A stretch of DNA of 64,000 nt. It comes from a virus. Where the stretch lies: IMG/VR virus record IMGVR_UViG_3300031787_000001, positions 124,001-188,000 of that record. One strand, written 5' to 3'. Shown in pieces: positions 17,506-48,170 of the stretch. A program made the translations under genes and the position numbers. Within the stretch, counting starts at the first letter, position 1, and the number at the start of each line of letters is the position of its first letter. The notes beneath the pieces are model-generated. The model made no database searches. It was given only the letters and a program-made list of their open reading frames with translations, and was not told the origin of the DNA.

Positions 17506-17581
17506 TTTTTTTTTCCCTTTAACAAAACTTTAACATTTCGGGGGTGAAGGTTCGGGGTGACTTTTTTCGTGGCGAGAACCT

Positions 17582-17621
17582 ACAAAGATACAAAATTATT
17601 TGTTAATAAAAAGTTAAAGTT
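17582..17621 (+). repeat. 39-nt direct repeat, copy 1
   Basis: Shares a 29-nt identical core (AAATTATTTG...TTAAAGTT) plus flanking ACAAAG.TAC with 17705-17744, in the divergent intergenic region. Confidence 0.85.
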
Positions 17622-17675
17622 TTCGTTAACAAAATTTTAAGAAAAAAAATTTGGAGGTGAACCCGTGAAGGTTTG

Positions 17676-17764
17676 GATTTTCTGTGGCGTGTAGGAAAAA
17701 AACCACAAAGGTACGAAATTATTTGTTAATAAAAAGTTAAAGTTATTATGAGCCAGAGAAAAAG
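17676..17764. repeat. TGTGGC palindrome element 1
   Basis: Left arm GATTTTCTGTGGC at 17676-17688, right arm GCCAGAGAAAA at 17752-17762, with the second direct repeat between the arms. A further TTTTTTCGTGGC half lies at 17562-17573. Confidence 0.65.
17705..17744 (+). repeat. 39-nt direct repeat, copy 2
   Basis: Second copy, 123 bp downstream of copy 1. Confidence 0.85.
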
Positions 17765-17831
17765 TTTTCCGGGTGATCCGGGGTTTACCCGTAAAATTCT
17801 TTAACATAACATTAACATTCGGGTTGATTGT

Positions 17832-17857
17832 TTTGGGGTGTATAAGGTGTATATTTG
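17832..17857 (+). promoter_or_regulatory. Early promoter
   Basis: TATATTTG at 17850-17857; TTTG at 17832 gives a short spacer, TTGA at 17824 a normal one. Drives 17889. Confidence 0.75.
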
Positions 17858-17888
17858 TATATCGTTCACAAGTTAAAACTCTACTACT

Positions 17889-18263
17889 ATGTTAAAAAGA
17901 ACTCTCACACTCGGACTTCATCATTGGACTGACAATGACTTAATCCTGAACTTTTATGTTACCAAATTCGGTACTCGGTACATTCATTTGAAAACCGAAG
18001 AAGAACTCTCCAAATTCATCGGTACAACTCCTTGTTCGTTTACCAAACAACAGATGAACTTCCGTTACCTTATGGGGTGTAAATCAAATGTCCTGACTGA
18101 CTACTCCAAACTTCAAAAGTTGGTGTTTGAAATGTTTGATGAAATCTCCTTCTACGAATTTCATCAAATCGTGAAAAAGATAGTTGGACAAGATGAATAC
18201 GAAAGAAATAAATTCTTTGTGGAAAATGGATATAACCCTGAACGAATGATAATGATAAGTTAA
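17889..18263 (+). CDS. Hypothetical protein, first early gene
   Basis: 124 aa, unrecognised. Mixed alpha/beta with aromatic N-terminus (LGLHHWTDNDLILNFYVTKF) and a helical C-terminal part. It has its own promoter and terminator, and is the first plus-strand gene after the divergent switch region. Confidence 0.78.
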   Translation: MLKRTLTLGLHHWTDNDLILNFYVTKFGTRYIHLKTEEELSKFIGTTPCSFTKQQMNFRYLMGCKSNVLTDYSKLQKLVFEMFDEISFYEFHQIVKKIVGQDEYERNKFFVENGYNPERMIMIS

Positions 18264-18283
18264 TCGGGTTGGAAACTGAAACG

Positions 18284-18312
18284 AAACCTCAACAGAAATG
18301 TTGGGGTTTTTT
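18284..18312 (+). terminator. Intrinsic terminator
   Basis: CCTCAACA GAAA TGTTGGGG stem-loop and T run. Confidence 0.88.
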
Positions 18313-18324
18313 ATTTCCCACAGA

Positions 18325-18350
18325 ACTCCGTGTTCACCAGATTCGCTGGT
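18325..18350 (+). repeat. Second dispersed motif, copy 1
   Basis: Contains GTTCACCAGATTCGCTGGT (CACCAG/CTGGTG stem); also at 18934, 19721 and 21093. Confidence 0.8.
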
Positions 18351-18411
18351 GGTAAATTTCTTTGGCTTGTAGAACCAGTTAGAAGATGTGGTTGGGGACA
18401 CCGCATGCGAA

Positions 18412-18476
18412 AATATTTCTGTGGCGGTTGTCTTACATAATAGGGGTATTACAGGAGGTTACACGCCAAGGAAATT
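18412..18476. repeat. TGTGGC palindrome element 2
   Basis: Arms AATATTTCTGTGGCG and CGCCAAGGAAATT around a loop containing GTATTAC. Confidence 0.75.
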
Positions 18477-18540
18477 CCATAATCCCGGATCACCTGTCGT
18501 GTCATCGTATTACACATTCACAAAACTTTAACAAAATAAA

Positions 18541-18573
18541 TTTGGATATAAGGGTATAAATTGGTTAACTTTG
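18541..18573 (+). promoter_or_regulatory. Early promoter
   Basis: TTTG at 18541 and TAACTTTG at 18566; drives 18595. Confidence 0.8.
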
Positions 18574-18594
18574 ACGAAACAAACTTTCAAAGTT

Positions 18595-18876
18595 ATGTCT
18601 TACACAAAAGAAGAAATCAAAATGAACTTGTCAAGAAACCCTAAATGGATAGAAAGAGCGTTGGTTGTCTTACATAACCTCCAAACTACCGAAGAACAAA
18701 TCACAAACGAAACAATCAAAGAGAATGGGGTTGGTTTTAATTCATCGGATAGTCGGTATCTCTCCTATTGTGCGAAATGGATAAAGGGTGGTAATCACTT
18801 AAACGAGAAACACCTCACTAAATGTGGTCAGAAACTCCCAAAGTATTGGAAACAAATACACTCAATGATTAAGTAA
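18595..18876 (+). CDS. Hypothetical protein
   Basis: 93 aa from ATG 18595; an earlier TTG start would lie on the promoter. Helical, with RNPKWIERALVVLHNLQTTEEQ and DSRYLSYCAKWIKGGNHL, a pattern widespread in uncharacterised phage proteins. No function known. Confidence 0.78.
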   Translation: MSYTKEEIKMNLSRNPKWIERALVVLHNLQTTEEQITNETIKENGVGFNSSDSRYLSYCAKWIKGGNHLNEKHLTKCGQKLPKYWKQIHSMIK

Positions 18877-18900
18877 CTTCACACTCCACTCAAAACATTA

Positions 18901-18930
18901 AACCTCCGATAGTATCGGGGGTTTTTTGTT
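18901..18930 (+). terminator. Intrinsic terminator
   Basis: AACCTCCGAT/ATCGGGGGTT stem and T run. Confidence 0.88.
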
Positions 18931-18933
18931 AGA

Positions 18934-18959
18934 ACTCCGTGTTCACCAGATTCGCTGGT
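18934..18959 (+). repeat. Second dispersed motif, copy 2
   Basis: GTTCACCAGATTCGCTGGT again, directly after the terminator. Confidence 0.8.
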
Positions 18960-18962
18960 AGA

Positions 18963-19012
18963 TATTTTTTGTGGCGGATAGGTACAGATTAACCTACTCG
19001 CCATGGAAAATT
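18963..19012. repeat. TGTGGC palindrome element 3
   Basis: Arms TATTTTTTGTGGCG and CGCCATGGAAAATT. Confidence 0.75.
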
Positions 19013-19072
19013 ATCCTGATCGCAACAGCGGTTCACGGGGAAAATTCGTTAACAACATTTTAACAATAAAAA

Positions 19073-19105
19073 TTTGGAAATATAAGGTATAATGTCGTAT
19101 ATTTG
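19073..19105 (+). promoter_or_regulatory. Early promoter
   Basis: TTTG 19073, TATATTTG 19098. Confidence 0.88.
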
Positions 19106-19128
19106 ATAAACAATTAAAAACTACTACA

Positions 19129-19308
19129 ATGGACAAAATCACTCTCACACTCCTTCTCCTTACACTCGGACTAATGGGGTTAACAATGTTATTCTCTCAC
19201 TATATGAGGAATGACAAAATCTCAAACATTTTTCTTCGTGTTTTATTCGGTTTGACAATGATGACATTCACTCTCTTTATGATGGACATTTTTCTCTCAA
19301 ACATTTAA
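19129..19308 (+). CDS. Membrane microprotein (59 aa)
   Basis: MDKITLTLLLLTLGLMGLTM and a second hydrophobic helix (VLFGLTMMTFTLFMMDIFL): two membrane segments. Its own early promoter and a plausible start 24 nt after the -7 box support a real gene. Role unknown; co-transcribed with 19321. Confidence 0.68.
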   Translation: MDKITLTLLLLTLGLMGLTMLFSHYMRNDKISNIFLRVLFGLTMMTFTLFMMDIFLSNI

Positions 19309-19320
19309 TAACTACCAACT

Positions 19321-19659
19321 ATGACACACGAACAACTACACAACTTCGTATCGGAAAAAGGTGAAAGGGAATTTAACCCACAAGAAACCTTACAAGTATT
19401 AACCCACAACAGAACAACATATTGGTCTTGGGGTGTATCTAAACTCCTTAATATGTTTAATAAGGGGTTATGTTTGAAAGTATCAGGACATCACCACAAA
19501 GGTTGGGTAATCATCACACTCGGTTTTACAGACACTTACTCGGTGTTTTATGTATCAAACAATGGTAAAGTCAAAGATGAACAACACTTGGTCTATTTTG
19601 ACGAACTCACCGAAAGGATAGATGATAAAATCGAACGAATACCGATTTACAAACACTAA
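19321..19659 (+). CDS. Hypothetical protein
   Basis: 112 aa, unrecognised. Beta-rich centre (LCLKVSGHHHKGWVIITLGF) with a HHH stretch. Second gene of the unit begun at 19129, ended by the terminator at 19679. Confidence 0.76.
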   Translation: MTHEQLHNFVSEKGEREFNPQETLQVLTHNRTTYWSWGVSKLLNMFNKGLCLKVSGHHHKGWVIITLGFTDTYSVFYVSNNGKVKDEQHLVYFDELTERIDDKIERIPIYKH

Positions 19660-19678
19660 TCACGAAATCGTAATACAG

Positions 19679-19711
19679 AAACCCTCGACAAAAGTCGGGG
19701 GTTTTTTGTTT
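19679..19711 (+). terminator. Intrinsic terminator
   Basis: ACCCTCGAC/GTCGGGGGT stem and T run. Confidence 0.88.
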
Positions 19712-19720
19712 TTCCACAGA

Positions 19721-19745
19721 ACTCCGTGTTCACCAGATTCGCTGG
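19721..19745 (+). repeat. Second dispersed motif, copy 3
   Basis: GTTCACCAGATTCGCTGGT. Confidence 0.8.
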
Positions 19746-19750
19746 TGGTG

Positions 19751-19806
19751 AATTTATGTGGCGGATCGTATTACAGATAAAGGTGGTATTACACGCCACA
19801 TAAATT
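19751..19806. repeat. TGTGGC palindrome element 4
   Basis: Perfect 13-bp arms AATTTATGTGGCG / CGCCACATAAATT. The C-to-A change in the left arm is matched by G-to-T in the right, so pairing is kept. Loop has GATCGTATTAC. Confidence 0.88.
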
Positions 19807-19867
19807 TTTTGGTTCAGATCCAGGTTTCCACCAGTGAAACTCTTTAACAATAGATTAACAAAATAAA

Positions 19868-19899
19868 TTTGGAATATAAGGTTTAATGATGTATATTTG
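19868..19899 (+). promoter_or_regulatory. Early promoter
   Basis: TTTG 19868, TATATTTG 19892. Confidence 0.9.
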
Positions 19900-19922
19900 T
19901 TAAACAATTAAAACATACTACA

Positions 19923-20177
19923 ATGGACAAAAACAAACTAATTAACAGAATTGAAAACATTGGTTTTCTTCTCGGTTGTTTTATCGGTTTATTAACACTT
20001 ATGATGTTGGGGGCGGAACCTACTACTTGGGATGAGGATGGGTTGTACGATTATGAACACCTTTGGGATAAAGGAAATTCGGGTTGGTATGTTATGTGGA
20101 CTTGGGTTTGGTCAGTTGTTACTTTGATTGGGTTGATAGTGGTTAGGTCATTCATTAAGAAAAGTTTAACAAAATAA
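19923..20177 (+). CDS. Two-helix membrane protein
   Basis: 84 aa with helices at about 12-32 (IGFLLGCFIGLLTLMMLG) and 58-77 (WTWVWSVVTLIGLIVVRSFI), separated by an acidic, aromatic loop. Role unknown. The next promoter begins inside its stop region. Confidence 0.75.
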   Translation: MDKNKLINRIENIGFLLGCFIGLLTLMMLGAEPTTWDEDGLYDYEHLWDKGNSGWYVMWTWVWSVVTLIGLIVVRSFIKKSLTK

Positions 20178-20178
20178 A

Positions 20179-20210
20179 TTTGGTTTTACTCGGTATAAGT
20201 TGTATATTTG
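20179..20210 (+). promoter_or_regulatory. Early promoter
   Basis: TTTG 20179, TATATTTG 20203. Confidence 0.88.
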
Positions 20211-20234
20211 TATAAACAATTAAAAACAAAAATT

Positions 20235-20429
20235 ATGAAAAAGTTTTTCAGTTCTATTCTCGGTTTTCACTTGACAATTATGGTTGGGTTGGTTGTTATG
20301 TTTTACTTCAACAACTTGGAAGATAACTACCTAACAATCATTAACAACATTTTCTTGGTTATGATGTCTTTATCCGTTGTGTTATCGGTGGTCTTATGTT
20401 ACTTTGACAAACGAATTTCTAAAAGATAG
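20235..20429 (+). CDS. Two-helix membrane protein
   Basis: 64 aa from ATG 20235; upstream TTG is part of the promoter. Two hydrophobic helices (ILGFHLTIMVGLVVMFYF and IFLVMMSLSVVLSVVLCYF) and a basic end. Unknown role. Confidence 0.72.
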   Translation: MKKFFSSILGFHLTIMVGLVVMFYFNNLEDNYLTIINNIFLVMMSLSVVLSVVLCYFDKRISKR

Positions 20430-20450
20430 TTGTAGTTTTAATTGTGAACG

Positions 20451-20480
20451 AAACCACTCCGAAAGGGGTGGTTTTTTTAT
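20451..20480 (+). terminator. Intrinsic terminator
   Basis: AAACCACTCC GAAA GGGGTGGTTT and T run. Confidence 0.9.
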
Positions 20481-20528
20481 TTGTGGTATTACACAAAACT
20501 TGAATCGCGGTTCGAGCTGGGATTACAC

Positions 20529-20578
20529 CTTTTTCTGTGGCGATCCGTATTACAGAAACCCACTCGCCATAAAAAAAG
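20529..20578. repeat. TGTGGC palindrome element 5
   Basis: Arms CTTTTTCTGTGGCG and CGCCATAAAAAAAG, loop with GATCCGTATTAC. Confidence 0.8.
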
Positions 20579-20620
20579 TTTACCAGGACGACAGGTATGA
20601 ATATGGTTTTGAAAAATAAA

Positions 20621-20652
20621 TTTGGAATCAAAAAATATAAGTTGTATATTTG
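20621..20652 (+). promoter_or_regulatory. Early promoter
   Basis: TTTG 20621, TATATTTG 20645. Confidence 0.9.
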
Positions 20653-20683
20653 TGTATTATCTAACAAATTAAATTTATATCAA

Positions 20684-21025
20684 ATGAAAGAACAAAATGA
20701 ATGTAATGGAAAAATGTTTCCGAAAGGTTTTTGGTCAAAGAATGGTAAGCCCACACAAAACGCCTTAATGATGTATTTTGTGTATTTGACACATTTACCT
20801 GAAAGTTGGAAAAAGAAAGTAGTACACAAACCCTCACTCGAAAAAACACGACAATACTTTGATGTTGATTATGGTATTGAATGTATGTTAACTTGGGGGA
20901 TACAATTTGGTTGTAAAAATTCTAAAACGTCAGATGAAAGACACCACGCAATGTCTTTGGCTTATCACGACGCTTTGGGTATGATTGGTCAAGGTTACCG
21001 ATACACCGAATTGAAAATTAAGTAG
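20684..21025 (+). CDS. Hypothetical protein
   Basis: 113 aa from ATG 20684, the first ATG after the promoter. Opens MKEQNECNGKMFPKGFWSKN; central LTWGIQFGCKNSKTSDERHH and a C-terminal YHDALGMIGQGY. Unrecognised; single-gene unit. Confidence 0.76.
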   Translation: MKEQNECNGKMFPKGFWSKNGKPTQNALMMYFVYLTHLPESWKKKVVHKPSLEKTRQYFDVDYGIECMLTWGIQFGCKNSKTSDERHHAMSLAYHDALGMIGQGYRYTELKIK

Positions 21026-21050
21026 TGTTTGGTTTTAATTGTGAACGAAA

Positions 21051-21080
21051 AGTCCTCAACGAAAGTTGGGGATTTTTTTT
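21051..21080 (+). terminator. Intrinsic terminator
   Basis: AGTCCTCAAC GAAA GTTGGGGATT and T run. Confidence 0.9.
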
Positions 21081-21092
21081 GTCAAGTCACAG

Positions 21093-21119
21093 ACCTCCGT
21101 GTTCACCAGATTCGCTGGT
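21093..21119 (+). repeat. Second dispersed motif, copy 4
   Basis: GTTCACCAGATTCGCTGGT; a degenerate fifth copy is at 21801-21827. Confidence 0.78.
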
Positions 21120-21123
21120 GGAC

Positions 21124-21172
21124 ATTTTTTGTGGCTGATCCTATTAGAGAAACCGACAAGCCATAGAAATTT
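21124..21172. repeat. TGTGGC palindrome element 6
   Basis: Arms TTTTTTGTGGCT and AGCCATAGAAAT; terminal pair is T/A instead of G/C, with pairing kept. Confidence 0.78.
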
Positions 21173-21223
21173 CAGGATGGAAGGTGATCCGAATTCACCT
21201 TCACAAAATTTTAACAAAAAAAA

Positions 21224-21255
21224 TTTGGAATAAGTATGTATATGTTGTATATTTG
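21224..21255 (+). promoter_or_regulatory. Early promoter
   Basis: TTTG 21224, TATATTTG 21248. Confidence 0.9.
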
Positions 21256-21278
21256 TATAAATAATTAAAAAAAACATT

Positions 21279-21416
21279 ATGAAAAAGATTTATTCAGTTA
21301 TCGTAGTTATCGTTCTTGTATCATTAACAATGTCCTCTTGTAAAACAAGTGGGTATGGTTGTAAGGGGAAAGAAAGTTGGGGTGGATTGATGAAAAGAAT
21401 TAACAAACCTTATTAG
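21279..21416 (+). CDS. Small lipoprotein (45 aa)
   Basis: Signal peptide MKKIYSVIVVIVLVSLTMSS then Cys21: a lipobox-like end. The mature part is 25 residues (TSGYGCKGKESWGG). Small Cys/Gly-rich lipoproteins of this type are common in Bacteroidota, and this window has several. A surface or superinfection role is possible but only inferred. Confidence 0.72.
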   Translation: MKKIYSVIVVIVLVSLTMSSCKTSGYGCKGKESWGGLMKRINKPY

Positions 21417-21432
21417 TAGTATGGTTGGTTTT

Positions 21433-21462
21433 AACCCGATGTTTTTACATCGGGTTTTTTAT
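21433..21462 (+). terminator. Intrinsic terminator
   Basis: AACCCGATGT/ACATCGGGTT stem and T run. No palindrome element follows this one. Confidence 0.9.
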
Positions 21463-21480
21463 TTTTTTTAACATTTTAGA

Positions 21481-21512
21481 TTTGAAATATAATATTTATT
21501 GTTGTATATTTG
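21481..21512 (+). promoter_or_regulatory. Early promoter
   Basis: TTTG 21481, TATATTTG 21505. Confidence 0.88.
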
Positions 21513-21532
21513 TTTAACTAAACCCACTCACT

Positions 21533-21736
21533 ATGAATTTACAATTAAGAACTGAACTAATCGGAAAAAGAATTATGATGATTTTTATGGATGACCCTCA
21601 ACCTATTGAACCAAACACAATGGGTACAATTATCGGAGTTGATGGGTTAAATCAATATCAAGTCAAATGGGATAACGGAAGAAGTTTATCGGTTATACCC
21701 GAAGAAGACCAATTCGTCATTATTGACACAGAGTAG
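21533..21736 (+). CDS. DUF4314 family protein
   Basis: 67 aa. Matches the small SH3-like DUF4314 pattern: MIFMDDPQPIEPNTMGTIIG, a central VDGLNQYQVKWDNGRSLSVI and a final DQFVIID. Family members are short proteins of phages and mobile elements with unknown function. Complete by length. Confidence 0.85.
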   Translation: MNLQLRTELIGKRIMMIFMDDPQPIEPNTMGTIIGVDGLNQYQVKWDNGRSLSVIPEEDQFVIIDTE

Positions 21737-21760
21737 TCCGTTCGTTCCCTCATAAAGACA

Positions 21761-21790
21761 AACCTCAACAGAAATGTTGGGGTTTTTTGT
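21761..21790 (+). terminator. Intrinsic terminator
   Basis: AACCTCAACA GAAA TGTTGGGGTT, same sequence as the one at 18284. Confidence 0.9.
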
Positions 21791-21831
21791 TTCTCCACAG
21801 AACTCCGTGTTCACCATGCTCCCGGTATGTC

Positions 21832-21880
21832 ATTTTCTGTGGCTGATCGTATTACAGGAAGTTAGACGCCAAAGAAATTT
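21832..21880. repeat. TGTGGC palindrome element 7
   Basis: Arms ATTTTCTGTGGC and GCCAAAGAAATTT; loop GATCGTATTACAGG. Confidence 0.8.
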
Positions 21881-21941
21881 CCAACGACCCGGATCAGGAA
21901 ATCGCCTGTCGGTTATCTTCACAAAGTTTTAACAAAATAAA

Positions 21942-21973
21942 TTTGGAATATAAAGTATAATGATGTATATTTG
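21942..21973 (+). promoter_or_regulatory. Early promoter
   Basis: TTTG 21942, TATATTTG 21966. Confidence 0.9.
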
Positions 21974-21996
21974 TTAAACAATTAAAAACTACTACA

Positions 21997-22107
21997 ATGA
22001 AACAAGACAATTCTGACCAATGGATTCAAGGATTAACATTAATAATCTGTTTTATTACACTTGTTATTGTAATCTCCTTAAAGTATTATCTAACGGGTGA
22101 AATCTAA
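21997..22107 (+). CDS. Single-helix membrane microprotein (36 aa)
   Basis: MKQDNSDQWIQGLTLIICFI... one hydrophobic helix with a short charged N-terminus. Start at the expected distance from the promoter. Unknown role. Confidence 0.6.
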   Translation: MKQDNSDQWIQGLTLIICFITLVIVISLKYYLTGEI

Positions 22108-22113
22108 AATAAA

Positions 22114-22145
22114 TTTGGAATATAATAAATAATACCTTATATTTG
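22114..22145 (+). promoter_or_regulatory. Early promoter
   Basis: TTTG 22114, TATATTTG 22138; only a few nt before the ATG at 22150. Confidence 0.85.
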
Positions 22146-22149
22146 TGTT

Positions 22150-22260
22150 ATGAAACAGAAATACGAAAATAGATTTTACAAAATTTTACTTTTATTTTGG
22201 ATGATGGTATTCACCTTTGTTTACTTTCAAATAAAATATCAATTAGTTTTCCATTTCTAA
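22150..22260 (+). CDS. Single-helix membrane microprotein (36 aa)
   Basis: MKQKYENRFYKILLLFWMMV, then FTFVYFQIKY: basic N-terminus and one hydrophobic helix. The ATG is 4 nt past the -7 box, so the transcript would be nearly leaderless. Confidence 0.58.
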   Translation: MKQKYENRFYKILLLFWMMVFTFVYFQIKYQLVFHF

Positions 22261-22270
22261 AAAACGAAAT

Positions 22271-22423
22271 ATGAAAAATAATTATTTAAGTACAATTAAA
22301 AGAAAGGAACAAGTACAACAAGGAATGTACGATGGTCGTTTCCGTAGTCGTGTGGTGGTAGATAAGAAGAAGAAAGAAAGTAAAAACAAATGTCGTGTTA
22401 AACTTAAAATCAATTATGTATGA
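22271..22423 (+). CDS. Small basic protein (50 aa)
   Basis: Ends in VVVDKKKKESKNKCRVKLKI; contains MYDGRFRSRVVVDKKKK. Lys/Arg-rich, possibly nucleic-acid binding. Stop overlaps the next start (ATGA), so it is coupled to 22420. Confidence 0.68.
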   Translation: MKNNYLSTIKRKEQVQQGMYDGRFRSRVVVDKKKKESKNKCRVKLKINYV

Positions 22424-22629
22424 TACTTGAATTACATTCAGTCGGAAGTGTTATTGACACAGAAACACTATTCACATATCCAATGTTACTAAATGGTGGA
22501 TATGATAAAAATCAAAATGTCCATATTGACGATGTTGATATAGAGTGGTTTCATAGTTTGTCTGATGAAGATTTTGGAACAATAAATGAGTTAATCAATC
22601 AAAGAAACATTAAATCGGAAATAGTATGA
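22420..22629 (+). CDS. Small acidic hypothetical protein
   Basis: 69 aa. Opens MILELHSVGSVIDTETLFTY and has an acidic middle (DDVDIEWFHSLSDEDFG). Coupled by ATGA overlaps on both sides. Unknown function. Confidence 0.72.
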   Translation: MILELHSVGSVIDTETLFTYPMLLNGGYDKNQNVHIDDVDIEWFHSLSDEDFGTINELINQRNIKSEIV

Positions 22630-22849: not shown

Positions 22850-22902
22850 GATTTTTTGTGGCTGATCGTATTCAGGTCAACCTCACAAGCCACGGAAATT
22901 TG
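22850..22902. repeat. TGTGGC palindrome element 8
   Basis: Arms GATTTTTTGTGGCT and AGCCACGGAAATTT; loop GATCGTATTC. Confidence 0.8.
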
Positions 22903-23286: not shown

Positions 23287-23328
23287 GATTTTCTCTGGCT
23301 CAGGTCAACCTACAAGCCAAAGAAAATT
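23287..23328. repeat. TGTGGC palindrome element 9
   Basis: Arms GATTTTCTCTGGCT and AGCCAAAGAAAATT. Upstream GATGTGATCCGGATCAGCTC is shared with element 11. Confidence 0.8.
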
Positions 23329-24080: not shown

Positions 24081-24130
24081 AAAATTTCTCTGGCGGATCG
24101 GTATTCGTATTACAGGAGCCACGGAAATTT
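24081..24130. repeat. TGTGGC palindrome element 10
   Basis: Arms AAAATTTCTCTGGC and GCCACGGAAATTT; loop has GATCGGTATTCGTATTAC. Confidence 0.8.
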
Positions 24131-25060: not shown

Positions 25061-25110
25061 GGATTTTACGTGGCAGATCGGTATTCGTATTACAGAAGCC
25101 ACAAAAATTC
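25061..25110. repeat. TGTGGC palindrome element 11
   Basis: Arms GGATTTTACGTGGC and GCCACAAAAATTC; loop GATCGGTATTCGTATTAC like element 10. Confidence 0.78.
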
Positions 25111-25972: not shown

Positions 25973-26014
25973 GAATTTATCTGGCGGATCGGTTTATGGA
26001 CGCCACGGAAATTT
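25973..26014. repeat. TGTGGC palindrome element 12
   Basis: Arms AATTTATCTGGCG and CGCCACGGAAATTT; short loop with GATCGG. Confidence 0.76.
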
Positions 26015-26836: not shown

Positions 26837-26878
26837 GAATTTCTGTGGCTGATCGTATTACACTCGCCATAAAAAAAG
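26837..26878. repeat. TGTGGC palindrome element 13
   Basis: Arms GAATTTCTGTGGC and GCCATAAAAAAAG; loop GATCGTATTACACTC. Confidence 0.8.
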
Positions 26879-27381: not shown

Positions 27382-27413
27382 TTTGGATTGTGTTTGTATA
27401 ATTTGTATATTTG
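27382..27413 (+). promoter_or_regulatory. Early promoter
   Basis: TTTG 27382, TATATTTG 27406. Confidence 0.88.
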
Positions 27414-28510: not shown

Positions 28511-28556
28511 GTGATTTTCCGTGGCAGATCCGTATTACATGCCACAAAAAAATTAC
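28511..28556. repeat. TGTGGC palindrome element 14
   Basis: Arms GATTTTCCGTGGCA and TGCCACAAAAAAATT; loop GATCCGTATTAC. Preceded by CAACAGCTCGTGATTTTC, also at element 16. Confidence 0.82.
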
Positions 28557-29349: not shown

Positions 29350-29395
29350 GATTTTCTGTGGCAAATCCGTACTATTGTTGCCACAAAATATTTTC
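29350..29395. repeat. TGTGGC palindrome element 15
   Basis: Arms GATTTTCTGTGGCAA and TTGCCACAAAATATTTTC. Confidence 0.8.
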
Positions 29396-30303: not shown

Positions 30304-30355
30304 ATTTTCTGTGGCAAAATCGTATGACACAAAGTGACTTGCCACATAATATTTT
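30304..30355. repeat. TGTGGC palindrome element 16
   Basis: Arms ATTTTCTGTGGCAA and TTGCCACATAATATTTT. Confidence 0.8.
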
Positions 30356-31756: not shown

Positions 31757-31808
31757 GATTTTCTGTGGCAAGAAAATTACAGGGGAAACGACTCGCCACA
31801 GAAATTTC
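31757..31808. repeat. TGTGGC palindrome element 17
   Basis: Arms GATTTTCTGTGGC and GCCACAGAAATTTC. A second GCCGGGCTA/TAGCCCAG stem follows at about 31816-31842. Confidence 0.85.
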
Positions 31809-33095: not shown

Positions 33096-33140
33096 GGATT
33101 TTCTGTGGCAGGATCGACACACTTGCCACAGAATATTTTC
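33096..33140. repeat. TGTGGC palindrome element 18
   Basis: Arms GATTTTCTGTGGCA and TGCCACAGAATATTTTC, short loop with GATC. Confidence 0.85.
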
Positions 33141-34870: not shown

Positions 34871-35614
34871 ATGAATAAGTTTCATGGAAAAAAAGTAGGA
34901 GAAATCTTTGAGACAAAAGATTATTCAATTTTCAAATTCAGAGAGGACAATCGTCCAATCATTCCAAACCATGTTAAGAAGTTAGCGAAGAGAATGTCTG
35001 AACGTGGTTGGTTACCAACATCAGTTGTCACTATTAATGGAAGTGGTGATATTATTGATGGACAAAATCGTGTGACCGCAGCGATGAGTGTTGGTTGTCC
35101 GATTCGTTACAAAGTAGTGAAAGGAGCAGGAAGTGATGAAATGACGGAAATGAATACACTACAAAAGAATTGGTCTCCGTTTGACCACTTACACAAGTTC
35201 GTTGTGAAGGGTAATAAGAATTATGTTGTATTCAATAATTTCATTACCGACTATCCAATGTATAAGTACACCGAAGTCGCGATGTTTCTCAACAACTCAA
35301 TGTCAAGTGTGAAGAGAGATACTTTTGAAAGTGGTGAATATGTTGTAAAGAACGAGAAGAAAGCTCGTGAGTGGGCTAACAACATTCTTGAACTCAAACC
35401 TTACTTTGAGAAGTATTACAACAAGTCAATCTTTGTGAGGGCGATGGTGAAGATTATGTCAAATAAGAAAGACTTTGTTTTTGAAGAGTTTTTACACAAA
35501 GTAAAGTTGAGACCAATGAAGTTAGTTCCGTGTGGAACGGTGGAACAATATGTGGAAATGATTGAGGGTATCTACAACTACATGAGAAAGGATAAAGTGA
35601 ATTTAAGGTTTTGA
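34871..35614 (+). CDS. ParB/sulfiredoxin-fold protein
   Basis: 247 aa. The first 100 residues carry the ParB/Srx core: RPIIPNHVKKLAKRMSERGW, then DIIDGQNRVTAAMSVGCPIR, with the DGQNR box of this fold. In phages these proteins can be nucleases, DNA binders or nucleotide-dependent regulators. The C-terminal 140 residues are helical with no assigned family. Single-gene unit. Confidence 0.85.
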   Translation: MNKFHGKKVGEIFETKDYSIFKFREDNRPIIPNHVKKLAKRMSERGWLPTSVVTINGSGDIIDGQNRVTAAMSVGCPIRYKVVKGAGSDEMTEMNTLQKNWSPFDHLHKFVVKGNKNYVVFNNFITDYPMYKYTEVAMFLNNSMSSVKRDTFESGEYVVKNEKKAREWANNILELKPYFEKYYNKSIFVRAMVKIMSNKKDFVFEEFLHKVKLRPMKLVPCGTVEQYVEMIEGIYNYMRKDKVNLRF

Positions 35615-35637: not shown

Positions 35638-35666
35638 GACCACTCCGAAAGGGGTGGTTTTTTTTG
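35638..35666 (+). terminator. Intrinsic terminator
   Basis: ACCACTCC GAAA GGGGTGGT and T run, same stem as 20451. Confidence 0.9.
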
Positions 35667-35703
35667 TTACGAACTCAGAATCTGCGGTCCTGAAGACGAC
35701 GGG

Positions 35704-35724
35704 GAAATTTTCTGTGGCAGGATC
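35704..35724. repeat. Half TGTGGC element (19)
   Basis: Left arm GAAATTTTCTGTGGCAGG only; no right arm before the promoter. Confidence 0.7.
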
Positions 35725-35755
35725 AAACTCTTTAACAAAACATTATGAAAATAAA

Positions 35756-35788
35756 TTTGGAAATAGAAAGTATTATATTGTATATTTG
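35756..35788 (+). promoter_or_regulatory. Early promoter
   Basis: TTTG 35756, TATATTTG 35781. Confidence 0.9.
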
Positions 35789-35800
35789 AAAAAAAACATT

Positions 35801-36211
35801 ATGATTGAAATGATTAAATCGGAATTGAAGTGGAGAGGAAAAGAAACCTACTCAATAGAAGAAATTATTGAAGTCATTGAGAAGTATAATAAAAAAGAAG
35901 AAACTCATAGAGTTGAAAGTTGTGGGTTTGTTGCCGATATGGAAACCAGACAAATAACTATTGACGATAAAAAACACAACCTACCAAAAAAAGAATTTTT
36001 GATTATTCATTACCTTATGGAAAATAAAAACAAGGTATTGAATAGAGATAAGATACTAAATAAAATTTGGGAAGATGATGTGATTGTAATAAACAGAACT
36101 ATTGATGTTCACATCAGGAGAATTAGAAATAAATTTCCAACAATTCCAATTAGAACAATTAAGGGAGTTGGATATACTTGGAGTGATAGAGAGACTTTAA
36201 CAAATGTTTAA
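35801..36211 (+). CDS. OmpR/PhoB-type winged-helix regulator without receiver
   Basis: 136 aa from ATG 35801. Residues about 45-130 are a Trans_reg_C domain: LPKKEFLIIHYLMENKNKVL, a recognition helix NRTIDVHIRRIRNKF, and the wing TIKGVGYTW. There is no response-regulator receiver; a 40-residue helical N-terminus takes its place. Likely a DNA-binding regulator of phage or host promoters. Followed at once by another early promoter. Confidence 0.87.
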   Translation: MIEMIKSELKWRGKETYSIEEIIEVIEKYNKKEETHRVESCGFVADMETRQITIDDKKHNLPKKEFLIIHYLMENKNKVLNRDKILNKIWEDDVIVINRTIDVHIRRIRNKFPTIPIRTIKGVGYTWSDRETLTNV

Positions 36212-38348: not shown

Positions 38349-38390
38349 GATATTCTGTGGCAGACTAAACACACTCGCCACAGAAATTTC
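38349..38390. repeat. TGTGGC palindrome element 20
   Basis: Arms GATATTCTGTGGC and GCCACAGAAATTTC. Confidence 0.82.
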
Positions 38391-40687: not shown

Positions 40688-40729
40688 GATTTTCTGTGGC
40701 GGATCAACTATACTCGCCACAGAAAATTC
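40688..40729. repeat. TGTGGC palindrome element 21
   Basis: Nearly perfect arms GATTTTCTGTGGCG / CGCCACAGAAAATTC; the cleanest C/G version of the family. Confidence 0.9.
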
Positions 40730-41687: not shown

Positions 41688-41703
41688 GGAATTTCTGTGG
41701 CAG
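41688..41703. repeat. Half TGTGGC element (22a)
   Basis: GGAATTTCTGTGGCAG, left arm only, 94 bp before a complete element. Confidence 0.7.
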
Positions 41704-41796
41704 AATAGTTTTATTGATTATCAATGAGTTATGAAAATAGCAAAAGTTGCAAAAGTTGCAGCAACACCAGAGCAAGTTGCCAGATTCAGAGCTATG

Positions 41797-41840
41797 GATT
41801 TTCTGTGGCAGACATTTGTATTACGCCACAGAATATTTTT
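41797..41840. repeat. TGTGGC palindrome element 22b
   Basis: Arms GGATTTTCTGTGGC and GCCACAGAATATTTTT. Followed by GGGCTGGGGTCGTGATC, also found after element 16. Confidence 0.85.
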
Positions 41841-42423: not shown

Positions 42424-42431
42424 AAAATATT

Positions 42432-43039: not shown

Positions 43040-43048
43040 AAAAATATT

Positions 43049-43090: not shown

Positions 43091-43113
43091 TATCACATTT
43101 TAAAATAAATCTT

Positions 43114-43350
43114 ATGACAAAAGAATTGTTACAAACTTGGACAACCAAAGCGAAAGAAGTATTAGAGGGACGAACTATTATATCAGTCCGTTATCTTAAT
43201 GATAAAGAAATGGAAATGATGGGTTGGTATAAACGACCTGTCGTGTTCTTCCTCGACAACGGAACATCCTGTATTCTCTCTATGGACGACGAGGGTAATG
43301 ATGGTGGTGTTTTATTCTATGGTAAAGATGGTGTATTACCTACACTTTAA
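43114..43350 (+). CDS. Conserved hypothetical protein
   Basis: 78 aa from ATG 43114. Compact beta-rich: ISVRYLNDKEMEMMGWYKRP, VVFFLDNGTSCILSMDDEGN, DGGVLFY. Seen in large phages by my recollection; unknown function. Confidence 0.78.
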   Translation: MTKELLQTWTTKAKEVLEGRTIISVRYLNDKEMEMMGWYKRPVVFFLDNGTSCILSMDDEGNDGGVLFYGKDGVLPTL

Positions 43351-43361
43351 AATAAATCTAT

Positions 43362-43577
43362 ATGAGAAGTTTTTTAGAATTAAAAACAGCAATAACAAAC
43401 GGTGTTCCATTAGTATGGAATGACCCTGACCCAATCAAAGGTACTGATTATACAATCACATACATTGAACCACTAGATGAAATTGATGATGATGAAGACC
43501 CAATGGGTTATCCAATTCTAATTCAATATGGGGGTTCAGAAGCTCAGGTTTATTTACATGAAATCATTTTAAAATAA
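43362..43577 (+). CDS. Small acidic hypothetical protein
   Basis: 71 aa. VPLVWNDPDPIKGTDYTITY and IQYGGSEAQVYLHEI suggest a small beta barrel. Unrecognised; tightly spaced with neighbours. Confidence 0.75.
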   Translation: MRSFLELKTAITNGVPLVWNDPDPIKGTDYTITYIEPLDEIDDDEDPMGYPILIQYGGSEAQVYLHEIILK

Positions 43578-43583
43578 ATCTAT

Positions 43584-43982
43584 ATGAAAAAACGAATTAA
43601 AGTTAGGTTCAATCTCGGTAGAGGTAAGAACTATCTAAAATGGAAAATCGAATATCCATCAGGTGAGGTAGAGTATCATTATCCTATCAATGTACAACTC
43701 GTAATGAAGAACTGTCAGCTTAAGAACAACAGGAATGCCGCTGAGAAGATTTATAAAAATCAATCACACAAAGTCGTTTGTGCTTGGGTACTCTGTGAGG
43801 ATATCGATGTGAAGTTCGATAAATTTAAGGCGTATGACACGATGGATCTGGATCGATTAACATACAATCCAAGAAGATTACCATATTGGGTGAAAGATGA
43901 TGGTTATCTAATGTGTATGGATGGAGTAACAGTAAATGAAATTGGAACAGTGGATTATAAATTATTCATAACTAAAAATTAA
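43584..43982 (+). CDS. Basic hypothetical protein
   Basis: 132 aa, basic. MKKRIKVRFNLGRGKNYLKW then YPSGEVEYHYP and AEKIYKNQSHKVVCAWVLCE. Possibly binds nucleic acid by charge; no family recognised. Confidence 0.76.
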   Translation: MKKRIKVRFNLGRGKNYLKWKIEYPSGEVEYHYPINVQLVMKNCQLKNNRNAAEKIYKNQSHKVVCAWVLCEDIDVKFDKFKAYDTMDLDRLTYNPRRLPYWVKDDGYLMCMDGVTVNEIGTVDYKLFITKN

Positions 43983-43986
43983 AACT

Positions 43987-44583
43987 ATGCCAAATTGGTG
44001 TTCAAACTCAATCACCATAACAGGTGATGAGGAAAAAATTAAATTCTTAAAGAATGTAATTGAGAATGGTATCCCCACTGAAAAACGACAGGAAGCGAAT
44101 GTTTTCATGACTCTCGTCGGAATTCCTCCTGACATGAATCTGTATGAATATGAACAGAAGTGGTATGGAACCAACATAGATAATTGGGGGACCAAATGGG
44201 ATGTGGCATATAATGAATCTTATTTCTCTTTTGAGGATACTGAAATAACCATGTCACCTGATACAGCTTGGTCACCACCAATTGGATTTGCTCAAAGTTT
44301 GGCAAGGAACTATGGGGTAAAGGTGGAGATGTACTATGAGGAACCAGGTTCCGACTTCTGTGGTAAAACTATAATCACTGAAGATGGTACGTTGACGGAG
44401 GAGGATTATGATTTTGTACATGGGAAATATGTCTTTGATAAAGAAGGTTTTTGGAATGAAATTATAAATAATATAGAGTTTGCAAAAGAAGATGATGTAT
44501 CTTTGGAAAACTTCATATTGGATTATGGTTATGTGAATGAAGAAGACAAAAAAGAGATTGAGAAATTATATAATGAATCATAG
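43987..44583 (+). CDS. Api92-like ferredoxin-fold protein
   Basis: 198 aa. The start MPNWCSNSITITGDEEKIKF and the segment DNWGTKWDVAYN, then FEDTEITMSPDTAWSPPIGF with EPGSDFCG are hallmarks of the Api92-like (DUF1281) phage family. Role unknown. The acidic C-terminal 50 residues are an extension. Confidence 0.88.
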   Translation: MPNWCSNSITITGDEEKIKFLKNVIENGIPTEKRQEANVFMTLVGIPPDMNLYEYEQKWYGTNIDNWGTKWDVAYNESYFSFEDTEITMSPDTAWSPPIGFAQSLARNYGVKVEMYYEEPGSDFCGKTIITEDGTLTEEDYDFVHGKYVFDKEGFWNEIINNIEFAKEDDVSLENFILDYGYVNEEDKKEIEKLYNES

Positions 44584-44628
44584 TTTTTATTTTTAACCAG
44601 CTGTTTATACAGCACAAATCAAACAAGT

Positions 44629-45108
44629 ATGGGTAGAGTTAACAAACTTACAGAGGGTGTGTTCACCAGTATCGTAGGTAATCAAACAATCATTCCTTCG
44701 TATGACAAATTCTTAAATGTTCAGGACGATTTAAAAAAACCGAGTCAGGAACTTAAGAAATTAATCACACAATACAAGAAAGAAATAACATCAAATAAAA
44801 CAATATTTGAGAAGTTAGCAAAGCTTGAGGATGTGATTATGCAGATCCGTACACGGGACAACCTGTCCAATGATATGATCAAATTGAACATTGTCCGTGA
44901 GTACATCTACGCTCGTATTCCTTTCCATCGTAACGATAAGGAATCAAACGACATCCGTGTCATCGTTGGATTAACTGAATTCAATGGTGTGGAAGTGGAC
45001 AAGATGTATGACAACAAAGAGTTTATGGACAAAGCCAAGAATAAATTGGTTGAGGCTATGAACGAGATTATTAACCAAAATTTGGAAACTGTAAATAAAA
45101 TAGATTAA
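44629..45108 (+). CDS. Helical hypothetical protein
   Basis: 159 aa, helical and charged (ELKKLITQYKKEITSNKTIF). No domain recognised. It ends 1 nt before the DNA methyltransferase gene and may be a partner. Confidence 0.77.
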   Translation: MGRVNKLTEGVFTSIVGNQTIIPSYDKFLNVQDDLKKPSQELKKLITQYKKEITSNKTIFEKLAKLEDVIMQIRTRDNLSNDMIKLNIVREYIYARIPFHRNDKESNDIRVIVGLTEFNGVEVDKMYDNKEFMDKAKNKLVEAMNEIINQNLETVNKID

Positions 45109-45109
45109 T

Positions 45110-46027
45110 ATGAAAAAGATTAACAATGTATTATCATTATGTGACGGTATCTCAATGTTCCAATACGCATTGAAAAAATCAGGAATTGAGTACAAGAATT
45201 ATTTTTCAGGTGAGATCAGTGAAACTGCTATGAGTATAGCAATGAAGAATTTCCCGAAAACAAAACAACTTGGTGATATCCGTAACATCAAAGGAAAAAA
45301 TTTACCTGAGATCGATATTATGGTTGCGGGATTTCCTTGTCAACAATTCTCAAGAGCAGGTAATGAAGATGGATTAACAGATATTCACGGAAATGTTCTC
45401 GACACATACAAGAAGTATCGTGAAGCCGATAAAAAGGGATGGATTAGAGAAGGATCTCAATCACACATTTTTTGGGAAGTATATAGGATCTTCAAAGAAG
45501 TTAAACCGAAGTATTTCATTTTTGAGAATGTTAAAATGGATCCAAAGTGGATGTACATCATATCAACATCTTTCGGTGTTAGTCCCATCTTAATAGATTC
45601 AAAATTGGTTTCCGCTCAACATCGTGAGAGATACTATTGGACAAATATTCCTGGTGCTATAATTCCAAAAGATAAAGGAATTCATCTTTCAAGTATTATT
45701 CCTGATGCGATCGGTGGACACGGTGTTAGAAACATTGATACAGGTAAGAAAACTCCTGAAGGTAAAAAAGTTTGGCGTAAGAACGCTACAACAAGAAAAG
45801 ATGGTAAGGCCAACTGTTTAACAACAAGAAAGGGTAACTGTTCCAAAGTGGAATTAAAGGACGGAACCATTAGACAAATCACCATCGAGGAAGCTGAACA
45901 ACTTCAAAATCTCCCGAAGAACTATACCAAAGTTCCTGGTGTTGCTGAAGGTAAGAGGTGGCACGCCATCGGTAATGGGTTCACCGTCAATGTATTTGTT
46001 CACCTATTAAAAGGTCTTAAAAAATAA
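45110..46027 (+). CDS. DNA (cytosine-5) methyltransferase
   Basis: 305 aa. Standard motifs in order: I (LSLCDGISMFQYAL), IV GFPCQQFSRAG with catalytic Cys, VI FIFENV, VIII QHRERYYW, and X GNGFTVNVF. A target-recognition segment lies between VIII and X (about 190-260). It makes 5-methylcytosine at an unknown site, probably to protect phage DNA from host restriction; no partner nuclease is adjacent. The motif I glycine pattern (LCDGIS) resembles the animal-type and phage stand-alone enzymes. Confidence 0.93.
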   Translation: MKKINNVLSLCDGISMFQYALKKSGIEYKNYFSGEISETAMSIAMKNFPKTKQLGDIRNIKGKNLPEIDIMVAGFPCQQFSRAGNEDGLTDIHGNVLDTYKKYREADKKGWIREGSQSHIFWEVYRIFKEVKPKYFIFENVKMDPKWMYIISTSFGVSPILIDSKLVSAQHRERYYWTNIPGAIIPKDKGIHLSSIIPDAIGGHGVRNIDTGKKTPEGKKVWRKNATTRKDGKANCLTTRKGNCSKVELKDGTIRQITIEEAEQLQNLPKNYTKVPGVAEGKRWHAIGNGFTVNVFVHLLKGLKK

Positions 46028-46029
46028 AT

Positions 46030-46060
46030 TTTGTGGAAAACATTTCACATATTATATTTG
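46030..46060 (+). promoter_or_regulatory. Early promoter
   Basis: TTTG 46030, TATATTTG 46053. Confidence 0.85.
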
Positions 46061-46078
46061 TAATCTAAATCCAAGTGT

Positions 46079-46426
46079 ATGACAAATAGCAATAGAATGT
46101 TAGTTCAGGATCTACAGAAACAACTGATCAATAAGGTTCTTTCCTTTATGGATGAGAATGATTTAAATATGGTGGAATTAAAAACCCCACTCAGGATCTT
46201 TGTTGAAGAACCATCATTTGATGATTATGTTATGGTTCCAATTGTGGCGAGGTCATTGTATGCTGATGGTTCCATCGGAGCTTATGATGAAGAAATAAAG
46301 ATCGAGAACTGTAGTATCTACGAGATCGCATACATAATGGATGTTCTCGAGAGTGGGGACTACACGGTAGATGAAGACGACTTTATCGATCCCGCTGGTG
46401 GACGAGGATTACATTCTCACATTTAA
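46079..46426 (+). CDS. Acidic hypothetical protein
   Basis: 115 aa. KTPLRIFVEEPSFDDYVMVP and IVARSLYADGSIGAYDEEIK. Acidic end with AGGRGLHSHI. Unrecognised. Confidence 0.77.
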   Translation: MTNSNRMLVQDLQKQLINKVLSFMDENDLNMVELKTPLRIFVEEPSFDDYVMVPIVARSLYADGSIGAYDEEIKIENCSIYEIAYIMDVLESGDYTVDEDDFIDPAGGRGLHSHI

Positions 46427-46451
46427 ATTTCGTAACTCAAAACTCAAGTAT

Positions 46452-47024
46452 ATGCACACTATCAATCTCGGAAAAAAAGTGGTCGTATCCGACCCTTGTT
46501 ACACCATCCCAACTTGGTGTCAAGCTGTAATCGAAAATGTAAAACCCGGCGTGTATCACACGACAGTCAGGAAACACGACGCTGGTGATTGGGGAAATCG
46601 TTGTTCAATGGTCTTTGCAATCCACGAGGAGTATGTTAACTTTGATCACCTGTTACACGGGAAATGGGAAGAACACCCAGCATCCATCGGAGTTGACTCG
46701 GGTCAATGTGGGATCTTTTCTTTTGAATCCTACAGGAATGACGAAGTTAAGTTCGATTTCGAACCATATGACTTCGGTAATGATTACCTTAGTAATAATG
46801 AGGGTGGTGACCTGTGGTATCGTCATATGTGTAAACACACATTGAGTGATCAATCTTGGGGAGTGTATGACAGTGGGATTGTTTCCAGTTCAGGATTCGG
46901 AGATGGAGCTTATCAATTGTATGTTGTTAAGAAACGAAACAAGATCGTGGCCTTCGCCATTGACTTTGGAGTTGAGGAGGGTAAGTACATCGACTTCGAT
47001 TACAGGAAGAAAGAATTAGTTTAA
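46452..47024 (+). CDS. DUF4241-like conserved protein
   Basis: 190 aa from ATG 46452; the upstream in-frame start overlaps the previous gene. VVVSDPCYTIPTWCQ, then GVDSGQCGIFSFESY and a C-terminal GAYQLYVVKKRNKIVAFAID match the DUF4241-type fold found in bacteria and phages. Function unknown. Confidence 0.8.
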   Translation: MHTINLGKKVVVSDPCYTIPTWCQAVIENVKPGVYHTTVRKHDAGDWGNRCSMVFAIHEEYVNFDHLLHGKWEEHPASIGVDSGQCGIFSFESYRNDEVKFDFEPYDFGNDYLSNNEGGDLWYRHMCKHTLSDQSWGVYDSGIVSSSGFGDGAYQLYVVKKRNKIVAFAIDFGVEEGKYIDFDYRKKELV

Positions 47025-47030
47025 GAACTT

Positions 47031-47060
47031 GGTGGTCAAATGACCACCATTTTCATTTAA
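47031..47060 (+). terminator. Intrinsic terminator
   Basis: GGTGGTCA AA TGACCACC, modest T run. Confidence 0.75.
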
Positions 47061-47090
47061 ACCCTATTATAAAAATATAAATCTAATATT

Positions 47091-47519
47091 ATGTACTCAG
47101 ATAACTTGATCAGAATCATCAGACCATCTCAGTGGATTAATTTAATCTATATCGTTCTTGGTATTGCTTTGATCCAAACTATCTTTGTTCCCCTTCTTGC
47201 TGTCATCAAGATGTTGGATGTATATTTTTGGAGATATGAATTCAGGGAGAGGACCATCATTGAAAGAAGGGGAATATTATCCGTGACAAGGAAGGAGGTT
47301 CACTTCTACAGGATTAAATCCATCAGAATCGACGAACCACTGTGGATGAGAATCTTCGGACTGTCCAAAGTATCCATAATCACCTCCGATCAATATCATC
47401 CTGAATTGGTTTTATACGCTGTATCCGACGGACATTACCTCCGTGAGTACATTAGATCTAACACCGATCAGTGGAGAAAGCTCGAAGGAGTTAAAGAATT
47501 TGACCTATATAACCTATAA
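47091..47519 (+). CDS. bPH2-type PH-domain membrane protein (YdbS-like)
   Basis: 142 aa. Hydrophobic segment at about 15-43, then a bacterial PH domain: WRYEFRERTIIERRGILSVT, RKEVHFYRIKSIRIDEPLW and FGLSKVSIITSD, as in YdbS/YdbT-like proteins. Likely anchored to the inner membrane. Role in the phage unknown; host-derived is possible. Confidence 0.82.
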   Translation: MYSDNLIRIIRPSQWINLIYIVLGIALIQTIFVPLLAVIKMLDVYFWRYEFRERTIIERRGILSVTRKEVHFYRIKSIRIDEPLWMRIFGLSKVSIITSDQYHPELVLYAVSDGHYLREYIRSNTDQWRKLEGVKEFDLYNL

Positions 47520-47522
47520 TTT

Positions 47523-47657
47523 ATGATAAGTAAGATTGCTTGGTTCTTTGATTACTACATCTTGTACTTCCTGTACAATGAGAGAAAGATCAACAGGTAC
47601 CATCGTAATATGATCAACAAGTACGGGGACAAATACAGAATACGAATCGACAGGTGA
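47523..47657 (+). CDS. Small basic protein (44 aa)
   Basis: MISKIAWFFDYYILYFLYNE, then a basic half (RKINRYHRNMINKYGDKYRI). Starts 3 nt after 47519. Amphipathic N-terminus might touch the membrane. Confidence 0.62.
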   Translation: MISKIAWFFDYYILYFLYNERKINRYHRNMINKYGDKYRIRIDR

Positions 47658-47670
47658 GATATGACCCCTC

Positions 47671-47689
47671 GATTTTCTGTGGCAAATCC
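47671..47689. repeat. Half TGTGGC element (23)
   Basis: GATTTTCTGTGGCAAATCC, left arm only. Confidence 0.65.
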
Positions 47690-47807
47690 ATATGGGAGAG
47701 GTATGCCCCGACAATAAGTTCTTTGAAATCCTTACTGGGATAAAGTTTTGTTAAAAAAAGTTACGGCAAGATTTTGTTTTCTACCATTCATTTTGTATGT
47801 TTATGAT

Positions 47808-48020
47808 ATGAAGAAAACAACAACCAAGGCTACTCGTGGAACAGGTTCCAAGACAGCCAACAAGACCCGCCGCACCACTTATGTTGCGGTAACGAACAAT
47901 GTTTACCATGACGGTACTAGTTACCGTGTACGTGTAAGTGTTGACGGTATCAAGTACAGCAAGAACTTCACTTCGAAGAAGAATGCTATTGCTTACCGCA
48001 ACCAGTTGTTGTCCGCTTAA
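47808..48020 (+). CDS. AP2 / integrase-arm-like DNA-binding protein
   Basis: 70 aa from ATG 47808. Basic N-terminus (MKKTTTKATRGTGSKTANKT) then NVYHDGTSYRVRVSVDGIKY and KNFTSKKNAIAYRNQLL: three strands and a helix as in AP2 and tyrosine-recombinase arm-binding domains. It would bind DNA by its sheet. GC-richer codons than its neighbours suggest separate origin. Confidence 0.82.
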   Translation: MKKTTTKATRGTGSKTANKTRRTTYVAVTNNVYHDGTSYRVRVSVDGIKYSKNFTSKKNAIAYRNQLLSA

Positions 48021-48090
48021 TTCGGACACAACCTCACACAGGTAAACAATCTCAGTAAGACCTTCGTGGATAAATCCTATACAGGTGTAT

Positions 48091-48110
48091 GGGACCCACG
48101 GGGTCTTTTT
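48091..48110 (+). terminator. Intrinsic terminator
   Basis: GGGACCCACGGGGTC with TTTTT. Confidence 0.75.
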
Positions 48111-48117
48111 ACATTAC

Positions 48118-48138
48118 GGACCTCCCTTCGGTCGGTCC
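48118..48138 (+). repeat. TTCGG hairpin, copy 1
   Basis: GGACC...GGTCC around TCCCTTCGGTC; second copy at 49039 has GGGCC...GGCCC. Confidence 0.8.
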
Positions 48139-48155
48139 TTCAGGAAAATGAACAT

Positions 48156-48170
48156 CAGATTTTCCGTGGC
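48156..48170. repeat. Half TGTGGC element (24)
   Basis: CAGATTTTCCGTGGC, left arm only, before the gene at 48204. Confidence 0.65.

Follow-up and report, generated by a model that had tools for sequence, protein, structure and literature searches.

The window analysed here is a 64,000-nt stretch of DNA, positions 124001-188000 of the 286,785-bp virus record IMGVR_UViG_3300031787_000001 (phage G000 below), whose early block carries a dispersed inverted repeat, mostly between a predicted terminator and the next predicted early promoter. The original prediction, made from the sequence alone, had reported about 20 full and several half copies of this repeat, and the census bore this out: we found 20 paired inverted-repeat copies at window 18414-41836 and about six single half-sites between 17562 and 48170, with all copies lying inside the early block at 17.5-48.2 kb (Table 1). 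A search of the 30.9 kb of this block with the half-site pattern TTTCTGTGGC, allowing at most one mismatch, returned 24 forward and 16 reverse occurrences, compared with 0.0 in five second-order Markov shuffles. The suggested search of the whole phage with a palindrome model, for which we required the core TGGC...GCCA and at least five of eight flanking pairs, matched 19 copies in the early block and gave a single chance match across other stretches of the record. Because sites were located by consensus patterns, weak copies will have been missed.

Promoters and terminators are predictions throughout this study. A predicted terminator was present no more than 130 bp upstream of 18 of the 20 full copies, while random positions gave a mean of 2.4 and a maximum of 9 in 1,000 trials. 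The distance from terminator to copy is mostly 48-63 bp in G000, and the next promoter, of host type, usually has its -33 box about 73 bp beyond the copy; where terminator and promoter were both detected, they are mostly 144-166 bp apart. Given this clustering of the terminator-to-copy and terminator-to-promoter distances, the block in G000 is a spacer of near-constant length that holds one site. Among the 31 promoters of the early block, 15 have both a palindrome and a terminator, 10 have neither, four have a palindrome only, and two have a terminator only (Fisher p = 0.001); that is, the site is also missing at 10 of the 14 promoters without a detected terminator. The location described in the original prediction was therefore confirmed, 18 of 20 copies standing after a terminator, while its wording "between almost every terminator and promoter" proved too broad: a compact junction at 27382 combines terminator and promoter with no palindrome, and 35756 has only a half-site and no full palindrome. 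With terminators and promoters placed as predicted, the spot occupied by the repeat would be transcribed by neither of the adjoining units.

Changes in one arm of the palindrome had been described as matched in the other, with 19751/19794 as the example, and the symmetry had on that ground been taken to be under selection; paired changes no more frequent than expected by chance were to count against this. For each genome, the right halves were reverse-complemented, aligned with the left halves and then shuffled among that genome's copies. Arm agreement in G000 was 132, compared with 133.2 +/- 4.4 after permutation (p = 0.63), and it was likewise no better than permuted in four relatives (p = 0.87, 0.92, 0.99, and 0.32). 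Compensatory changes between arms were thus not detected above chance by permutation in any of the five phages, and the change at 19751/19794 occurs in one copy only. Because arms agree within a copy to the same degree as between copies of the same genome, the repeat is built from an oriented half-site, about 10-12 bp long (ATTTTCTGTGGC in G000), and not from a base-paired stem; two inverted copies of one half-site explain the symmetry.

In G000, most copies consist of two half-sites that face each other on the same helix face. Across phages, the half-to-half gaps range from 4 to 49 nt or more and cluster at 4, 14-17, 23-28, 32-35, and 44 bp. The best period for 63 copies is 10.0-10.25 bp (R = 0.66; p ~0.0014 when each length is counted once per genome), and this periodicity points to a protein bound to double-stranded DNA. 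Both halves change together between phage types, as expected if one protein reads both. An RNA hairpin made by read-through, serving as an extra terminator, an RNase site or an antitermination element, would suit those copies that are perfect inverted repeats and the loops of 4 to 49 nt or more, but it is at odds with arms that do not covary, with a 10-bp periodicity in loop length and with the single unpaired half-sites of relatives. An Rfam search gave no match to the repeat, and we consider such a hairpin very improbable.

Strains G001-G004 are 100% identical to G000 over the aligned early-block stretches, bar one 161-bp deletion in G003, and were uninformative as a source of variation; a megablast search of the early block against named phages gave no match. 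A search for GP88 homologs led to G005, a 310-kb phage with TTTGTTTGGC...GCCAAACAAA at the equivalent position and 13 copies of TTTGTTTGGC. Alignment of a ParB-like protein led to G015 and G016, both with a TTGTTTGGC-type half-site, and to G017, with TTATGAATGGC, and alignment of a small conserved protein led to about 20 more contigs, nearly all types of which bear the site, with TTGTTTGGC or TTAGTTTGGC in most. The half-site is TTGTTTCGC in L207 (arms GATATTGTTTCGC...GCGAAACAATATC) and GTTTACTGGG in L212-L218 (arms GTTTACTGGG...CCCAGTAAT in L212 and L215). About 15 related phage types thus have the site in their own half-site versions, which together with TTTCTGTGGC of G000 make six half-site types; the kind of position is kept while the half-site sequence differs. 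The half-site pattern search recognised no site in L219, none was seen in three phages with a GP88 homolog (G006 and G007, both nearly whole, and part of G008), and the palindrome family was not seen in lillamy (L198) or in the part of the EFP01 genome that was read (L199), both of them more distant carriers of a ParB-like protein.

G000 and G015 do not share the same order of orthologous early units. This recalls the promoter-early stem-loops (PeSLs) of T4-like phages (PMC4503421), in which, as here, repeated units join a terminator and an early promoter between small early genes and unit order is shuffled between relatives. PeSL stem-loops are base-paired, whereas here no such stem was found: the arms do not covary and the repeat is separate from the terminator hairpin. 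Promoter-terminator spacers could nevertheless serve, as in those phages, mainly as homology for the shuffling of gene units, an idea favoured by the changed unit order and by spacer pieces that recur beside several copies. One of these, CTCCGTGTTCACCAGATTCGCTGGTG, which is a dyad in its own right, stands ahead of several copies at window 18310-21835, which implies that spacers are copied locally. We find this account improbable, as it leaves orientation, helical phasing and whole-site switching unexplained; shuffling may be a by-product. The suggestions of a recombination or replication site or a mobile repeat gained no positive support: a compact junction that lacks the block does exist at 27382, but neither insertion boundaries nor target duplications were seen, the latter without a systematic duplication search.

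In the relatives, most half-sites are aimed at the downstream gene; in L206, L209, L221, L222, and L223, they are also mainly single (forward:reverse 12:1, 13:0, 13:2, 21:3, and 20:2, respectively). Among cases below 35 bp, single forward half-sites of these phages stand 8-9, 18-21, or 28-31 bp from the TTTG box at -33, and the 31 sites within 75 bp of the box gave R = 0.57 at 10.5 bp (p ~5e-5). Further stretches were then fetched for these five phages, and the only five sites that they hold within 75 bp of the box stood at 8, 9, 19, 28, and 29 bp (p = 0.003 in a V test for the predicted phase). We set the half-site patterns and the 75-bp limit after seeing the data; only the new-stretch check was fixed beforehand, and it is a small true hold-out for location, not for phage identity. 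A looser half-site pattern added further cases at about 8, 19-20, and 28-29 bp. At the level of sequence, the helically phased halves, their joint change between phage types, and the orientation and promoter register in relatives lend good support to the earlier idea of a binding site for a phage protein. A role in insulation, also raised earlier, or as a roadblock is possible too.

We regard it as somewhat probable that the copies are operators of one sequence-specific phage regulator over early transcription units, probably an activator. A phage-specific regulator would bind the half-sites ahead of early promoters, contact RNA polymerase from a fixed helix face, and most likely activate early or middle transcription. 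An activator is favoured because half-site phasing, orientation, and the -33 register fit a protein that touches polymerase from a fixed face. At bacterial promoters, the sites of class I activators likewise lie upstream on a fixed face of the helix, at intervals of one turn; the half-sites described here differ in that they occur in many copies per phage, shift in specificity between relatives and have only a candidate binder. Seen as a whole, the repeat network looks like a switchboard through which one regulatory protein might address many early genes.

Several observations weigh against an activator. Paired sites are clearly in helical register with the promoter in G000 alone: 11 of its 18 cases have 92-98 bp between pair and -7 element, and others are about one turn off (84, 105, and 106 bp). 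When all phages are pooled, the register is weak (right half, p = 0.04; left half, p = 0.09). Site-bearing promoters are already near the Bacteroidetes consensus, so the need for an activator is not evident. Some half-sites of relatives are intergenic without a recognised promoter close by, a placement more in keeping with a roadblock. Furthermore, copies within a genome are partly duplicates and the phages are also related, so that all p-values given here are optimistic and serve as guides only.

The main rival to an activator is an oriented, stoperator-like silencer or roadblock, at which a bound phage protein would halt polymerase reading through the terminator or shut early units later. 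Stoperators, the L5-type repressor sites of cluster A mycobacteriophages, are short oriented sites found more than 20 times per genome at promoters and in short intergenic gaps, with a phage-specific consensus (PMC6550527, PMC9283540). The repeats described here likewise form a dispersed set in which one short site, its consensus specific to the phage, recurs more than about 20 times; copies stand after terminators in short intergenic gaps, and orientation follows transcription in the relatives, whereas G000 has mostly inverted pairs (24 forward and 16 reverse half-sites). A roadblock also explains sites between promoter-less genes better than an activator does. It needs, however, no register with the -33 box (8-9, 18-21, and 28-31 bp upstream), and in G000 one half of each pair faces the other way. 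Unlike stoperators, the sites here often form inverted pairs with helically phased gaps behind terminators, single sites keep the -33 register, and the carriers are jumbo phages with Bacteroidetes-type promoters. No homolog of a stoperator-type repressor was identified, no search having been aimed at one. We see a silencer as rather unlikely; the network appears to work like a phage operator network that resembles stoperators in number, orientation, and consensus.

For the regulator favoured here, the best lead is a candidate 70-amino-acid (aa) protein resembling AP2 and integrase arm-binding domains, with homologs of 56-91 aa in relatives. Its structural model has three strands and a helix, with a core predicted local distance difference test score (pLDDT) above 90. 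Structure matches were to integrase arm-binding and AP2 domains, the best (3jtz, 7et4, and 3rmp) being weak at E 0.5-0.7, and no Pfam family matched. In nearly all compared loci, the gene is preceded by one to three half-sites, mostly in direct orientation, and it is missing in the three site-less GP88-bearing phages, of which G006 and G007 are nearly whole and G008 was read in part. High conservation counts against this candidate: the L207 and L212 proteins are 86% identical while their sites differ at about five positions, and the other early proteins that were compared between these two phages, which share them, are less conserved. Because the protein is highly conserved while the site varies, it is doubtful as the sole determinant of specificity. 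The deletion in G003 covers window 47988-48148 and removes the end of this gene; the other strains are identical over the compared stretches.

Early gene control in Bacteroidetes jumbo phages is, to our knowledge, almost unstudied. Our findings tentatively suggest a larger picture, which we rate as a minority possibility: a family of uncultured jumbo phages, widespread and with promoters of the Bacteroidetes type, may run its early genes via a dedicated network read by this tiny AP2/integrase-arm-like protein, and whole phages may, several times, have switched the operator at every site simultaneously. With 10-20 sites per genome, near-fixed promoter geometry, and a phage-type-specific sequence, the network offers a direct handle on the regulator and a natural series for how a genome shifts the specificity of one regulator together with all its sites.

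Table 1. Half-sites of the early block and genes for candidate binding proteins in the window.
Feature	Position	Strand	Loop (nt)	Remark
Inverted half-site pair 1	18414..18476	+	39	
Inverted half-site pair 2	18964..19011	+	24	
Inverted half-site pair 3	19751..19806	+	32	earlier example of a matched change
Inverted half-site pair 4	20530..20577	+	24	
Inverted half-site pair 5	21124..21171	+	24	
Inverted half-site pair 6	21832..21879	+	24	
Inverted half-site pair 7	22851..22900	+	26	
Inverted half-site pair 8	23288..23327	+	16	
Inverted half-site pair 9	24083..24129	+	23	
Inverted half-site pair 10	25063..25109	+	23	
Inverted half-site pair 11	25974..26013	+	16	
Inverted half-site pair 12	26838..26877	+	16	
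Inverted half-site pair 13	28514..28552	+	15	
Inverted half-site pair 14	29351..29391	+	17	
Inverted half-site pair 15	30304..30352	+	25	
Inverted half-site pair 16	31758..31806	+	25	
Inverted half-site pair 17	33098..33136	+	15	
Inverted half-site pair 18	38350..38388	+	15	
Inverted half-site pair 19	40689..40727	+	15	perfect arms
Inverted half-site pair 20	41798..41836	+	15	
Single half-site, degenerate	17562..17573	+		divergent region, left edge of early block
Single half-site	17677..17688	+		divergent region
Single half-site	35707..35718	+		GGC end ~37 bp upstream of -33 box of OmpR-type regulator gene
Single half-site	41690..41701	+		followed by TTGATTATCAATGAGTT; just ahead of pair 20
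Single half-site	47672..47683	+		upstream of AP2-like gene
Single half-site	48160..48170	+		downstream of AP2-like gene, ahead of gene 48204-49034
Gene, AP2/integrase-arm-like protein (70 aa)	47808..48020	+		candidate binder
Gene, ParB-like protein	34871..35614	+		weaker candidate; 67-84% identical in first four relatives
Gene, OmpR-type DNA-binding protein	35801..36211	+		weaker candidate; Trans_reg_C, found with longer frame 35654-36211

Two further genes of the early block are weaker candidates. The ParB-like gene is present in all five of the phages first compared, which would suit a partition or chromatin site bound by its product. A variable gap between halves, single oriented half-sites, and a promoter register, all found here, do not belong to the features of parS; with loops of 4-49, the repeat is not a fixed-length palindrome of the parS/KorB type. 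We consider a partition site highly unlikely, and the ParB-like protein is disfavoured as reader of the site: its AlphaFold2 model is poor (mean pLDDT 58), and no palindrome family was seen in the carriers lillamy and, over part of the genome, EFP01. Of the first four relatives, only G005 and G015 have a homolog of the OmpR-type protein. A ribbon-helix-helix protein encoded in the structural region (L007:3559-3795) was rejected, as it is 86% identical to its G005 homolog despite differing sites.

The loops contain motifs of their own. GTATTAC, described earlier as frequent in the loop, is indeed present there in 10 of the 20 copies. The sense strand of window 17500-48200 has 28 occurrences, compared with 3.6 expected, and the opposite strand has one; palindrome loops hold 11 of them, and the rest are near terminators, in the gap between -33 and -7, or in genes. 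Early regions were tested in four relatives as well, and the motif is enriched there too. Several ~35-bp loops hold a near-palindrome, TTGATTATCAA, beside ACTCA/TGAGT, which is conserved across phages (window 41702-41735; L173:6491-6533; L207:3207 and 5110; L210:5728; L211:6357; L222:4235) and may be another site for a protein, enclosed by the half-sites. The 15-kb contig of G015 (L160) has no GATC where 35 would be expected, and G016 and G017 also show strong depletion of GATC, which suggests pressure from a GATC-cutting host system. The early block also contains a gene for a C5 cytosine methylase (window 45110-46027, + strand), and a gene for an HNH/homing-type endonuclease lies near the left edge (window 14068-15117, - strand).

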